NCBI GenBank assembly: GCA_003553185.1
Contig: PUPC01000328.1
Location: 1-33,657 of the forward strand
Direction of reading: 5' to 3'
DNA length: 33,657 nt
Source: Planctomycetota bacterium
GTDB lineage: Bacteria; Planctomycetota; PUPC01
The notes under the pieces were generated by a model. That model saw only the letters and a program-made list of their open reading frames with translations. It was not told the DNA's origin and searched no databases. Both the position numbers and the translations under genes were made by a program. Shown here piece by piece: positions 4,784 through 10,841 of the stretch. Within the stretch, counting starts at the first letter, position 1; each line of letters opens with the position of its first letter.

Positions 4784-5320
4784 ATGTTGAAAAAGGTTAC
4801 GAGGTACGGATTCGCGCTTGCTGTGGTCGTATGCCTGTTGGCTCCTTCGATGACGTCGGCGGATAGCACCGTCTCCACCGTCACAATCACGGCGACGGTT
4901 GACTCGTTTGCCGAATGGGATGTCACCACTCCGGCTATTGAGGCGGAGGAGTTCGACGGCAATATCGCGAGCGTGGGCCAGGCAATTACCGCATCGCAGA
5001 CGTTGACGCTGTATGCCAACGTTAACACCACGATCACCCCCACAGGCGGCGTCAACAACGGCATATTGAGCAGCGATACCGACACGTTGACCACGAGCTA
5101 TAAAATGTCCGGCGACGAGATCGATGACGACACTGAATGGATTGTTGCCGGGACAGGCACCGGTGAGTTTTTTGCCGGCAATACGTATTTGGTCACCCAT
5201 GCGGATGGTGTGGGCGCCTATGAGGTGACTCTACATGTCCAAGCCGAAAGCCCGGGCAACCGGGCTCCTGACGCCGGCAGCTACACCTGCGGAGTCGTCT
5301 TGACCGCAACTTGGGACTAG
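4784..5320 (+). CDS. Small secreted beta-rich protein, putative fibre/surface subunit A
   Basis: Signal peptide MLKKVTRYGFALAVVVCLLAPSMTSA; Thr/Val-rich beta pattern; C-term AGSYTCGVVLTATWD; SD AAGGAG. Shares TLTTSYKMSG with the next gene product. Confidence 0.75.
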   Translation: MLKKVTRYGFALAVVVCLLAPSMTSADSTVSTVTITATVDSFAEWDVTTPAIEAEEFDGNIASVGQAITASQTLTLYANVNTTITPTGGVNNGILSSDTDTLTTSYKMSGDEIDDDTEWIVAGTGTGEFFAGNTYLVTHADGVGAYEVTLHVQAESPGNRAPDAGSYTCGVVLTATWD

Positions 5321-5341
5321 TAGCTTGGGCGGCTCGCTGTC

Positions 5342-5361
5342 AAGGTCCCGGGCGGGGCCTT
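5342..5361 (+). promoter_or_regulatory. Intercistronic hairpin between subunit A and subunit B
   Basis: AAGGTCCC-GGGC-GGGGCCTT, 8 bp including one G-U pair, about 43 bp before the next ATG. Confidence 0.5.
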
Positions 5362-5404
5362 GGAGCGGTTTTTCGCCGGAACCCCAGGCCGAGAGGGCGG
5401 AACT

Positions 5405-5869
5405 ATGGTCCTGCGGAAGAACATCATCCAGGCATTGGGCTGTCTTCTGGCAGTCTGCTCCGGTCACAGTACGACATTGGCCGACGCTTCCTGGCAGGAC
5501 GCCCCCTATTCGTTCGAGACGGACGGGCACATCACCTTCCCCGGGCAGGTCCGGGACGGCACATTGGAGATGACCCTGGCGCACGACCAGCCCTGTCGGG
5601 TTTCGGTATCCGTCGCTCAGGCCGGCGACGAGGTGCTGAGTATCGATGGGGATGCCCTGACCACCAGTTATAAGTTGACCGGCCCTTCCGTGCTCAACCC
5701 GGATGAACACTGGGTCGGCTCGCAGACGTTCATCAGCCGAACTTACGACGTAGACGGTCACGGCCCCACGTCGGACATCACCCTTTCGGTCCGTGTGGCA
5801 GCCGCCGGCGATCGAGCCAACAATGCCGGCGAATATTCCGCTTCCATCGTGTTGACGGTCTCATGGTGA
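5405..5869 (+). CDS. Small secreted beta-rich protein, putative subunit B (paralogue of A)
   Basis: Signal-like N-terminus MVLRKNIIQALGCLLAVCSGHSTTLA; ALTTSYKLTG and GDRANNAGEYSASIVLTVSW parallel the upstream gene. Confidence 0.72.
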   Translation: MVLRKNIIQALGCLLAVCSGHSTTLADASWQDAPYSFETDGHITFPGQVRDGTLEMTLAHDQPCRVSVSVAQAGDEVLSIDGDALTTSYKLTGPSVLNPDEHWVGSQTFISRTYDVDGHGPTSDITLSVRVAAAGDRANNAGEYSASIVLTVSW

Positions 5870-5877
5870 GGAAATAT

Positions 5878-7140
5878 ATGAAGGTGAACAGGCCTATCGT
5901 TGCCCTGACATTCGCAGTAGTGGCGGTCTGTTCCGTTCGAGTGGCGAGGGCCGGCGTGGCGGTGGCCCCGCTCAGGCAGGAGATATCGGTCCGGCCCGGT
6001 CGGACCGAACGTTTCAGGATCACGATTACCAACCGGGTTCGAGAGCGGGCTCGTGCCAGGCCGGAGAGTGTACATCTGATGCTGGCCGACGTGGCGGTTT
6101 CGGAGACGGGCCATCTGTCTTTTCCGGAGCCCGGGAGCATGTCGCGATCCGCCAGTGATTGGATAACGCTGAGCGCGACCGAGGTTGTTCTCGAACCGGG
6201 CGAATCAAAACGGCTCGAGGGGACCATCGCAGCCCCTCACAACGCGGCGGGGGAATACTATAGCGCAGTTCTTGTGACACTCGGTTCCCGGGGGAAGACA
6301 GCGGGAGGGGTGACGCTGACATATCGAGTCGCGTCGGGATTGTTCGTCAACGTGACGGGACGCTCATTTCCAAGGCGGGCGAACATCACCAGATGCGAGA
6401 TCGTCTGGCCTCACCTGGACGGCGAACAAGACGACGGGTCGAAAGCCCGGTCGACACTGTCACGCCCCCCAGAGATTGTGGTCGCTTTGGAGAACACAGG
6501 GCAGGCACGATTCCAGGCCACCGGTCAGGTCCGAATTCTGGATGAAAATTTGAGGACTGTCTTCCTGACTCCCTTGCGCAGCAATCGGTCGAGAGTGTTC
6601 GGCGGGGACAGCCGGATATTCAGGACATTGTTGGATAAGCCGCTGCCGGCCGGGCAGTACCAGCTTCATGTAGAGATGGACTACGAATCGCAATGGGGCA
6701 AGGCACGTCACCGGGAACCGTTGGAGATAACGCCAGAGCTTGCCCGCCTTCTGGAACAGGCGGCCGCCGAATCGGACGAACGACAGGCAGGCGATATTCT
6801 GAAGGCAGAGCCCGAGTCGCTTCATTGTAATATGTTGCCGGGCGCTTTCAGATCGTTCGGTATCGTGGTGAAAAATACGTCCGGGTATACCGTGCCCATC
6901 TCGGCCGCTGTTACCGGACAAGACGAAGGCCCGGCTCCGGAAAAATGGTGGTCGATTGAACCGGGCACCTTCGAACTTACGGCCGGCTCGCGCAGGTCGC
7001 TCGTACTGCTGTTGAGGGTCCCCCGGGATATCGATCCGCAGGAACAAGAGTTCTTGCTGGTGCTGAGAGCGATGCAGCCGGATGGGGCGGTGTCGGAGCT
7101 GCGTGTTCCGGTAAACGTTGCCATAAGGGCGAGGAGATGA
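5878..7140 (+). CDS. Secreted multi-Ig-like, chaperone/DUF916-like protein
   Basis: Signal peptide; VAVAPLRQEISVRPGRTERFRITITNR..., LEPGESKRLEGTIAAPHNAAGEYYSAVLV, then two further Ig-like segments. Upstream in-frame ATG 5863 overlaps the stop of the preceding gene. Confidence 0.65.
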   Translation: MKVNRPIVALTFAVVAVCSVRVARAGVAVAPLRQEISVRPGRTERFRITITNRVRERARARPESVHLMLADVAVSETGHLSFPEPGSMSRSASDWITLSATEVVLEPGESKRLEGTIAAPHNAAGEYYSAVLVTLGSRGKTAGGVTLTYRVASGLFVNVTGRSFPRRANITRCEIVWPHLDGEQDDGSKARSTLSRPPEIVVALENTGQARFQATGQVRILDENLRTVFLTPLRSNRSRVFGGDSRIFRTLLDKPLPAGQYQLHVEMDYESQWGKARHREPLEITPELARLLEQAAAESDERQAGDILKAEPESLHCNMLPGAFRSFGIVVKNTSGYTVPISAAVTGQDEGPAPEKWWSIEPGTFELTAGSRRSLVLLLRVPRDIDPQEQEFLLVLRAMQPDGAVSELRVPVNVAIRARR

Positions 7141-7162
7141 CAATCCAATGGGAGGGACAACA

Positions 7163-8506
7163 GTGAAGAACCAGACCCAACCACATTGGTGTCGAGTTTT
7201 AGCCGCCTGTTTCTGCATGCTGGTCGTTGTCGGGATCGGTCCGGAACTCTCGGGAGACGAGTCGCTGGCCGAGGAACCGGCAGAACCAGTCGTAACCAAC
7301 GTCTGGGTGGAAACAGAAGTCCGGCAGGTCATCCAGGACATTTCGTTGCAGACGGGCGTGCCCATCATCTGTGATCACACCGTGCAGGGCGTCGTAACGA
7401 TCGCCGTTCAGGAGATGCCATTGGAGGACGTGCTTGAGCGTGTCTGTGCCGTGGGCGGCTATGAATTTCTTAATGTTGATAACTATTATGTGGTTGGAAA
7501 GCCCGATCCGGGGGGCTTGATGTTCGCCCGGACCGCGTCCTCGAAGCGGGTCAGCTTGACCTATGTGAACAGCGACCAGGTCAGGGCGGCGCTGCATCCT
7601 TCGCTGGCTCAATTCGTGACCTACGACAAGCCCAGCGGGACGGTAATCATCACCGCCCCCGAAGCTGCACGGAATAAAGTTATCGAGGCCATTCGCGAAA
7701 TCGATCACCCACATCGGCAGGTGATTATCGAGGCAGTCGTTTTCGAATTGACCGAAGAGGGGGCAAAGCAACTGGGACTGGACTGGCAATACGGCCACAA
7801 GCGATTGCAAACGGGGATGAGCGATCTCGTGGGCACTGTCACTTACGACGCCGCATCCGACATCGCAAGGTATATAGAGGTGACCTTGCGGGCAATCATC
7901 CAGGAGCGTAAGGGACGTGTCCTGGCCAGCCCCCGGATTGCGGTGATGAACGGCGAGGAGGCAGATATTTTCGTCGGGCTCGAACGATACTTCTCGCTGC
8001 TGAGCGGTCCCGCATCCAACCCGTATTATCGCCTGGAATCGATCAAGGCCGGGGTGAACCTCACGGTCGGGGCCCAAATCGGGGCGAATGGACAGATGGT
8101 TCTGAAGCTGGCTCCCGAGGTCTCTGATGTGGCGACCGAGACCGCCAGAGACAACAACAATAACTCCGGCGCAGCGGCGAATTCCACCTTGCCGGTTGTA
8201 ACCAGGCGACGCGCCAACACGACCATCAGTGTCCGCGACGGACAGACGATCGTGCTGGGGGGGCTGTTGCGCGAGCAGCACCGCTCGCTGGTCGAGAAGG
8301 TGCCGGTGCTGGGCGACATCCCTCTGCTCGGGGCGGCCTTTCGCAAGGTAACCGAGCGAAAGGAGCAACAAGAGGTGATCATCGTGATGACCGCCCACTT
8401 GGTGGACGGCAATGACTCTCGCGCGGCCGAGCTTCCCAGCCGCCTGGAGCAACGGTATATAAGCCCGCTCGATTCCATCGCACCGTCAGCCCAGGGAGAA
8501 CCGTAA
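7163..8506 (+). CDS. Secretin-family outer-membrane protein (STN/N0, N1 and secretin domain)
   Basis: VWVETEVRQVIQDISLQTGVPIICDHTVQGVVTIAVQEMPLEDVLERV (N0-like); secretin core ending TTISVRDGQTIVLGGLLREQ...KVPVLGDIPLLGAAFR...VIIVMTAHLV. GTG 7163 is preceded by GGGAGGG; alternative ATG at 7148. Confidence 0.9.
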   Translation: MKNQTQPHWCRVLAACFCMLVVVGIGPELSGDESLAEEPAEPVVTNVWVETEVRQVIQDISLQTGVPIICDHTVQGVVTIAVQEMPLEDVLERVCAVGGYEFLNVDNYYVVGKPDPGGLMFARTASSKRVSLTYVNSDQVRAALHPSLAQFVTYDKPSGTVIITAPEAARNKVIEAIREIDHPHRQVIIEAVVFELTEEGAKQLGLDWQYGHKRLQTGMSDLVGTVTYDAASDIARYIEVTLRAIIQERKGRVLASPRIAVMNGEEADIFVGLERYFSLLSGPASNPYYRLESIKAGVNLTVGAQIGANGQMVLKLAPEVSDVATETARDNNNNSGAAANSTLPVVTRRRANTTISVRDGQTIVLGGLLREQHRSLVEKVPVLGDIPLLGAAFRKVTERKEQQEVIIVMTAHLVDGNDSRAAELPSRLEQRYISPLDSIAPSAQGEP

Positions 8507-9522
8507 TGTGGAAAACCAGGGCTATCATACCCATTCTGATCCTGGCATCCGGGTGTCGGATCGCCCCTGACTCTGCAATCCAGACCGATCTGACGTTCCA
8601 GAGGGGTTCACAACTGTTGGCCACCGGAAGCCCCAAGACCGCTATTCCCCTGCTTACCCAGGTCGTCGCGTCTGTCCCCGATGGGCCGGAACCCCACGCC
8701 ATGCTATCATTGGCATACGCCCTCGACCTGCAAAGCGAACGAGCCATCGCCCAGGCCGCGCAGGTCAAACGCAAATCCGGAGAGCCGCCCGGTTGGGAGC
8801 GAATGGCGGTTGGCATCGCAGAACTGGCGCGAGGGCGGCCCGATGAAGCGGTCCGCCAATTTGACGATATCAGGGAGCAAGTGGGACCGGAAAGCCCGAT
8901 GAGAGTCGCAATCAGTCAGTGGCTGATTATGGCCCTTCTGCTCCGAGAAGACCATCAGAGGGCCCTGGAACTGCTCGACGAACTCGCTCTCACCCCCGCA
9001 GGCACGACTGCACTGCTCTGGCGCGTACTCGTTTATTCGCGGCAAGGAGACACAGACGAAGCCGTACAAGCCCTGACGGCTGTCGCCGGGGATGTCGCCG
9101 TCTCGAGGCCGGCACCTGTGAATATTGGGCAGGAGATGGGCGACCATATGCTCTACGATGCAGCGATACGTGCCCTCGGCGACGGGGACCTCGAGGAAGC
9201 CGAAAAAATCTTCGATGACCTTCAGCAGCGCCACTCCAGGGCGTATGACGCTCCGACCTGGCTGGCACTGATTGCGGCCGCCGACGGGGATTGGACGTCG
9301 GCTCGGTCCCGGCTGGACGAAGCCCGACTGCTTGGCTCAATGCAGTCGCGGGGCATCGCACATCAACTCCATGGCGTCGTTTATGCCATGGAAAGAATGC
9401 CGGAACAGGTCGTCCGAGCGATGGTTGTTGGTCAGCGGCTGCTGGGCCGAGGCAGTTCGCCAGCCCATGCCGTAACACAACCGAAACCGGATCGAGTCTG
9501 GTTTTCTGACGCCATGAAATGA
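8506..9522 (+). CDS. TPR-repeat lipoprotein
   Basis: Lipobox-like LILASGC; repeated TPR-like helices (AMLSLAYALDLQSERAIAQAAQ, ALELLDELALTPAGTTALLWRVLVYSRQGDTDEAVQAL). Start overlaps secretin stop (TAATG). Confidence 0.78.
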   Translation: MWKTRAIIPILILASGCRIAPDSAIQTDLTFQRGSQLLATGSPKTAIPLLTQVVASVPDGPEPHAMLSLAYALDLQSERAIAQAAQVKRKSGEPPGWERMAVGIAELARGRPDEAVRQFDDIREQVGPESPMRVAISQWLIMALLLREDHQRALELLDELALTPAGTTALLWRVLVYSRQGDTDEAVQALTAVAGDVAVSRPAPVNIGQEMGDHMLYDAAIRALGDGDLEEAEKIFDDLQQRHSRAYDAPTWLALIAAADGDWTSARSRLDEARLLGSMQSRGIAHQLHGVVYAMERMPEQVVRAMVVGQRLLGRGSSPAHAVTQPKPDRVWFSDAMK

Positions 9523-9857: not shown

Positions 9858-10841
9858 ATGGAGCGATCTATAATGGCAAAAGTAGCGTTGATGGTTTTTT
9901 TGATGACGGGAGCCGCACATGCCGTACCGGCGCTCCAATTATACATTCCCGGTTCCACCTACGACTATGATACGGAAACGTGGGTGAGCACGGATACTTC
10001 GAGCCCGCTTCAGGTGCTGGGGGCGAGTCGGCCCAACCAATCGGTGATTGACGACCTTTATCTCCATGTCGCCATACCGCAGGATCAGTGGTCTGTCGGG
10101 GCCACCGCCACTCTCTCCGGGCCGGGTTATGAATCGGGCGTAACCATCTCGGACTGGGATTTTGGCACCCCTGACGGCATCTCCCAGCACGGCATTTACG
10201 ATACCTACTACAAGAGCTTGCAGCTCCCGACGATGGACGTCGCGGGCGGAACCGATGTCGTCATCGACCACGTGCCCGAGGGCGATGGTGGCTCTACCAC
10301 CGGAGTCATCTATGAGTATATGGTCGATTACAGTGGAACTTCCGGCCTCCATTTCGATGTAAGCGGCCTTTCCTTCAATCCGAATTCCGGGAATTGGCTT
10401 CCGAGATTCGCCCCGTACTCTCATGACGCGGAATTTTTGTCCACCACCGCTGGTATCACAGGTATCAAGTGGCATGATCTCAACCAAGACGGTGTGTTCG
10501 ACCTTGATGAGCCCACCCTTGAGGGCTGGACGATCAATCTCGAAACGCTTGACGGCGATCTGCTGATGGCCACCGAGACCGACGAGCACGGAGTATATCT
10601 CTTCGACGACCTCGAATTCGGGACCTACATCGTTACCGAAGTGCTTCAGCCGGGCTGGGAACAGACAGCTCCCGAAACCGGTTACTATACTGTGCACCTG
10701 GACAGCGAGGGCATCCTGGGCGGTTACGATTTCGGCAATTATTACATCGAAGAGCCGGGTATCCCCATTCCCGAGCCGGCTGGCCTCGCATTGGTGGGAT
10801 TCGCCGGACTTATCGCGTTGCGACGCCGGCGACGGCGCTGA
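9858..10841 (+). CDS. PEP-CTERM exported protein, choice-of-anchor-like N region plus SdrD-B-like repeat
   Basis: Signal peptide; TGIKWHDLNQDGVFDLDEPTLEGWTINL...GTYIVTEVLQPGWEQTAP; C-term PIPEPAGLALVGFAGLIALRRRRRR. SD AAAGGAGA. Confidence 0.9.
   Translation: MERSIMAKVALMVFLMTGAAHAVPALQLYIPGSTYDYDTETWVSTDTSSPLQVLGASRPNQSVIDDLYLHVAIPQDQWSVGATATLSGPGYESGVTISDWDFGTPDGISQHGIYDTYYKSLQLPTMDVAGGTDVVIDHVPEGDGGSTTGVIYEYMVDYSGTSGLHFDVSGLSFNPNSGNWLPRFAPYSHDAEFLSTTAGITGIKWHDLNQDGVFDLDEPTLEGWTINLETLDGDLLMATETDEHGVYLFDDLEFGTYIVTEVLQPGWEQTAPETGYYTVHLDSEGILGGYDFGNYYIEEPGIPIPEPAGLALVGFAGLIALRRRRRR

Follow-up and report, generated by a model that had tools for sequence, protein, structure and literature searches.

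The window, a stretch of 33,657 nucleotides on contig PUPC01000328.1, is part of a 3.2 Mb draft genome (G000) whose nearest named relatives are the MAGs Planctomycetota bacterium CSSed10_192R1 and Candidatus Brocadiia bacterium CSMAG_2295. Between positions 4784 and 9522 it carries five co-directional open reading frames, A to E, all on the forward strand. Gene A (4784-5320, 178 aa) encodes a small secreted beta-rich protein that is a candidate major subunit, and gene B (5405-5869, 154 aa, from an ATG at 5405) encodes its paralogue. They are followed by gene C (5863-7140, 425 aa), whose secreted product has three predicted Ig domains and a WxLIP-like fold and is a candidate periplasmic chaperone, and by gene D (7148-8506, 452 aa), a secretin with an N0 and one N1-type domain that belongs to a distinct, Ig-linked clade. 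The last, gene E (8506-9522, 338 aa), encodes a TPR lipoprotein, a candidate pilotin that is found only in the genus of the window genome. The genes are tightly coupled: a 7-bp overlap joins B to C, a 7-bp gap separates C from D, and the stop of D and the start of E meet in TAATG. This is the layout read in the original prediction, which had also recognized here a pair of small signal-peptide paralogues, a multi-Ig secreted protein, a secretin and a TPR lipoprotein, and each of these assignments was borne out.

A hairpin with a T-rich tail, a terminator-like scan match, lies in the gap between A and B (5340-5363, +), and a hairpin occurs at the same position in a sister species (G001) and in another genus of the family (G002). 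The hairpin is possibly an attenuator, which would favour A. As proof of attenuation we rejected it, because in the window it is not more stable than shuffled sequences (z -0.8). Downstream of E, at 9858-10841 (+), lies a gene whose product is a choice-of-anchor N protein; it carries an SdrD_B domain as well as a PEP-CTERM sorting signal, and may be a surface protein sorted by an exosortase. Such a gene also adjoins the operon in G001 and is outside the wider conserved core.

Both small proteins have signal peptides, as read from the sequence, and they are about 34% identical to each other. AF2 models A as a beta-sandwich, with moderate confidence (pLDDT 69). At its N-terminus, A has a strand-like extension that is absent from B; the difference would fit a repeating and a capping subunit, which we offer only as an idea. 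Homologues of A occur in G001 and G002, as do orthologues of B, whose position is unchanged, and a profile of A and B recognizes small proteins in family f92 with E-values down to 1.7e-23. When 15 subunit candidates were scanned, no Pfam or NCBIfam family was found for A or B, enzyme families included, and none of the candidates matched the WxL domain (dual W-x-L motif). PDB sequence searches with A and B returned nothing significant. The structure matches of A include CfaB, PapA and an archaeal thread, with a TM of only about 0.3, which is too low to establish pilin homology.

Three Ig-like domains are predicted in the AF2 model of C (pLDDT 78.7). The top Foldseek matches by E-value are multi-Ig ciliary proteins with low TM-scores, and the best compact match is the WxLIP of Enterococcus faecium (TMt 0.58-0.63), both alone and bound to WxL (9i1y, 9i25). 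Next come the pilus chaperones CfaA (0.55-0.60) and CsuC (0.50-0.55), and together these fold matches back the chaperone-like call made for C in the original prediction. In profile searches, C of the window reaches PF06030 with an E-value of only 0.21; a homologue in the genome G361 scores 31.4 bits for WxLIP_PGBD, above the Pfam gathering cut-off of 27.3, with a weak HBD, and PapD_N was seen in one member of the C family only, weakly (E 0.17). PDB sequence searches with C gave nothing significant, the third domain weakly matching CfaA and Caf1M. Judging from the model, C is folded like WxLIP and the pilus chaperones, two families whose members hold small beta proteins.

In Firmicutes, WxLIP is a cell-surface protein and not a transient chaperone, which counts against reading C as a chaperone. 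C could itself be exported and be a permanent surface partner of A and B in a WxL-like complex, with the secretin serving as the exit pore for all three. That the closest fold of C is WxLIP, including its WxL-bound form, agrees with such a complex, as do Firmicute gene clusters of the same make-up, in which two small or WxL proteins accompany one WxLIP (PMC10599100). However, C is without the C-terminal transmembrane helix of WxLIP, A and B show no WxL-domain match, and the second-best match of C is to pilus chaperones, whose general fold is the same. We consider a WxL-like complex quite improbable.

Gene D is a clear secretin match (PF00263, E 1e-40), with an N0 domain and one Secretin_N domain. 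It resembles GspD, PilQ and HofQ and scores far below their NCBIfam equivalog cut-offs (180.8 bits against 351.35 for the GspD type). By sequence, D matches the structures of GspD and PilQ, and its match to RcpA is poorer than either. Trees that also took in E. coli GspD and HofQ and the remaining secretins of these genomes group the Ig-linked secretins in a single clade (100/99 with 7 rows, 99/97 with 10 rows), separate from the T2SS, T4P and other secretins of those genomes. The T2SS-type secretin of the window genome, on a contig that also has GspE and GspF genes (C144), falls outside the clade, so D is not the resident T2SS or T4P secretin. The idea that D is the genome's own T2SS secretin, one of the outcomes that would have told against the original prediction, was thus rejected by the trees. 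Elsewhere in G000, two adjacent secretin-family genes lie beside phosphate-transport-type genes (contig C13, L011:3-3270); this pair is conserved in G001, and its members form their own lineages in the tree.

The gene set is conserved in Planctomycetota, with a core that usually comprises a multi-Ig protein, a secretin and a pair of small, secreted, beta-rich proteins. The sister species G001 has the full set of A to E, and G002 has A, A', B, C, D and a small lipoprotein. Within the window genome, a paralogous locus on contig C78 repeats the arrangement of subunit, Ig, secretin and lipoprotein genes: the subunit is a small secreted beta protein, the Ig protein shares 27% local identity with C, the secretin is 32% identical to D, and the lipoprotein is small. 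A scan of named genomes matched only the two nearest relatives. The profile of C led to more distant relatives, and a secretin adjoins the Ig gene in G361, G304 and G364.

For a reverse test, a profile of the clade secretins was searched in 392 genomes of the phylum, 150 of family f28 and 75 of the class of G361; secretins above about 260 bits, clear of the rest by score, were taken, and their flanks were searched for C-like genes. There are 28 clade loci (the window counted) in seven family-level groups of Planctomycetota, not all of them independent, as several f28 loci come from one genus. The Ig gene is directly adjacent to the secretin in 25 of the 28, representing six family-level groups, and it was found within the same distance at 0 of 46 control secretin loci. 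Of the three remaining loci, two have a contig end beside the secretin (G046 and G404), and only G187 is truly without an Ig gene. Small secreted ORFs with a common C-terminal strand motif (e.g., LxxGDYxxxVxGTI) flank 17/27 clade loci and 0/46 controls, a count that favours the clade since the control flanks were shorter. Gene order varies (A-B-C-D, A-B-D-C, D-A-B-C, A-C-D-B) while content is kept, which speaks for a functional set and against linkage by chance. The presence of the whole locus in the sister species, the paralogous locus in the same genome and the linkage of the Ig gene likewise indicate that the locus is more than a chance arrangement. The synteny on which the original prediction depended is present, the gene set being kept in several family-level groups.

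The sole true exception, in G187 (L120:6134-7480), is a lipobox-bearing clade secretin with no Ig or small-subunit gene nearby. The secretin frame is broken in the draft assemblies G364 (L037:8673-10429, -) and G502 (L155), through either misassembly or gene decay, and there are relatives in which the gene is intact. In G535 (L162:1231-3949), the main Ig-secretin pair is preceded by additional small beta proteins and by another, short Ig protein of ~300 aa. G361 has such upstream genes on contig C14 (L035:3920-8620), which probably adjoins contig C137 of that genome.

Neither an ATPase nor an inner-membrane platform belongs to the constant content of the gene set. The original prediction had noted that such genes are missing from the locus, and we found no GspE/PilB- or GspF-type match on the contig of the window. 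There are also no PilM/N/O/P genes next to D; in G002, such genes sit with another secretin, on contig C71. No usher (PF00577) was found at the locus, where the conduit gene is the secretin. In G361 and G535, which belong to a single genus, the Ig-secretin pair is followed directly downstream by genes for a pseudopilin, an MshEN-like protein and two PilB/GspE ATPases, to which G361 adds a GspF gene. The other clade loci examined showed no adjoining platform gene.

The G361 and G535 arrangement bears on the main rival explanation, in which a T2SS or T4P platform with genes elsewhere in the genome would use D as an alternative secretin, and A, B and C would be cargo or an adhesive complex pushed by a pseudopilus. 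The window genome could supply such a platform, as small contigs of it, on which no secretin was seen, carry several ATPase and GspF genes. However, the association is limited to one genus among the loci seen, and the clade is distinct from secretins found alongside PilM/N/O or GspE/F genes. In addition, D has one N1-type domain, compared with three in GspD, which is built as N0-N1-N2-N3. On balance, we regard a borrowed platform as a serious possibility but a rather unlikely one.

The TPR repeats of E are well recognized (TPR_16, E 3.5e-16), and a lipobox-like LASGC is found at residues 13-17. The TPR lipoproteins TadD and PilF are secretin pilotins (PMC10499894) and, by analogy, it is plausible that E is a pilotin. 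E has an orthologue in G001, and a small non-TPR lipoprotein takes its place in G002 and on C78. We rejected E as a core component because it is absent outside the genus of the window genome. The five-gene unit proposed in the original prediction thus did not hold: the small proteins, the Ig protein and the secretin are conserved, and the TPR gene is genus-specific. Most loci share a lipid anchor, carried by the secretin or by a lipoprotein encoded beside it. The lipobox is on the secretin in G361, G304, G149, G187, G364 and the f28 loci with an intact start, and in G361 and G535 the lipobox and the secretin are separated by a segment that on visual inspection resembles TPR. No lipid anchor was identified in the loci of family f92.

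We tentatively read the gene set as a dedicated chaperone-secretin surface-export system, in which a WxLIP-type chaperone would deliver small beta-sandwich subunits to a dedicated secretin, and we give this reading close to an even chance. In this scenario, A and B would enter the periplasm by Sec, as their signal peptides suggest, and are predicted to fold as small, perhaps incomplete, beta-sandwiches. C would bind and stabilize them, probably by beta-strand insertion, as is predicted for WxLIP with WxL. For Firmicutes, binding of WxL by WxLIP has been proposed, with a predicted insertion of a DUF916 hairpin into WxL (PMC10599100). C would then hand A and B to D, a secretin of its own clade at the outer membrane, which may be held by a lipid anchor on D or on a pilotin-like lipoprotein such as E. 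The subunits could exit through D and form a surface coat or fibre. Given that no ATPase or platform is constant, export might be driven by assembly, as in chaperone-usher pili, or be helped by a platform encoded elsewhere.

Several lines of evidence point to the export system. These are the linkage of the secretin to the Ig gene (25/28 against 0/46) and to small ORFs (17/27 against 0/46), gene content that is kept despite changes in order, the single clade formed by the secretins, the paralogous set in the same genome, and the lipidation of the secretin or a neighbour in most loci. C also shares its fold with WxLIP and the pilus chaperones, both of which bind small beta proteins (PMC10599100). 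The reading is weakened by the moderate model of A, the pilin TM of about 0.3, the pilin-type genes and ATPases of G361 and G535, the G187 secretin without an Ig gene, and the f92 loci without an identified anchor. A more specific form of it, which we think unlikely, is a new class of outer-membrane assembly system that has no ATPase or inner-membrane platform at all. Here, the WxLIP-type chaperone would feed beta-sandwich subunits directly to a lipid-anchored secretin acting as an usher, and a surface fibre would arise by strand exchange.

Alternatively, D may be a passive outer-membrane pore with periplasmic or surface accessories (e.g., an uptake or envelope-tubule complex), and A and B may not be exported subunits. 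Secretin-like particles whose partners are unclear occur at the tips of outer-membrane tubes in Flavobacterium johnsoniae (PMC8455137). However, a passive pore does not easily explain why a chaperone-fold protein is conserved together with several small secreted proteins, and we consider such a pore very improbable. The suggestion in the original prediction that the secretin is the conduit for a chaperone-delivered subunit is thus supported in part: the chaperone-like C, the synteny and the separate secretin clade speak for it, and the five-gene unit in which it was framed fell away. A fibre as the product, donor-strand complementation of A and B by C, and independence from any T4P or T2SS platform are conjectural parts of the reading.

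Textbooks describe secretins as components of ATP-driven machines, and PapD/WxLIP-fold chaperones as partners of ushers or of Gram-positive cell walls. A conserved operon that joins a secretin to a chaperone-like protein of this fold suggests an outer-membrane route that we did not find in the literature searched, which did not take in subscription papers or preprints. The gene set is undescribed in that literature; its parts resemble known kinds, but the combination does not. It is small and concrete, and can be tested as a source of planctomycete surface structures.

A plasmid search extended beyond Planctomycetota. On two Deinococcus plasmids (L087:4969-10571 and L088:4848-10533), and also in G006 (L019:4587-10582), a WxLIP-like Ig gene and small proteins neighbour a large protein whose regions are Ig-like, barrel-like and carboxypeptidase-regulatory-like and which has no match to the usher family. 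In neither setting does a secretin adjoin the WxLIP-like gene. If the large barrel-like protein is a pore, the same type of chaperone would be found with two different outer-membrane conduits.

From the perspective of known systems, D is like the T2SS and T4P secretins GspD, PilQ and HofQ in having N0, N1 and secretin domains. It differs from them in its separate clade, in scores below the NCBIfam equivalog cut-offs, and in a locus where ATPase and platform genes are not constant. The pairing of a secretin with a TPR lipoprotein recalls RcpA-TadD of Tad systems and PilQ-PilF of T4P (PMC10499894), whereas no Tad ATPase or TadB/C is present at the locus, E is genus-specific, and RcpA is the poorer match of D. 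Chaperone-usher pili of the CfaA and CsuC types share with the set small beta-rich subunits, an Ig-fold chaperone-like gene, C being similar in fold to CfaA and CsuC, and a gene for an outer-membrane conduit. In the planctomycete set, however, a secretin stands in place of the usher, C has three or more Ig domains, and the pilin matches of A and B are at a TM of about 0.3. The WxL/WxLIP (DUF916-DUF3324) clusters of Firmicutes likewise combine two small secreted beta proteins with one multi-Ig partner per cluster, and C has a predicted WxLIP-like fold, with one homologue passing the WxLIP_PGBD cut-off. Unlike those clusters, the set is found in a diderm host and includes a secretin, C is without a transmembrane helix, and A and B are without a WxL-domain match. 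If the export reading is true, it would link the WxL complexes of monoderms with the pilus chaperones of diderms.
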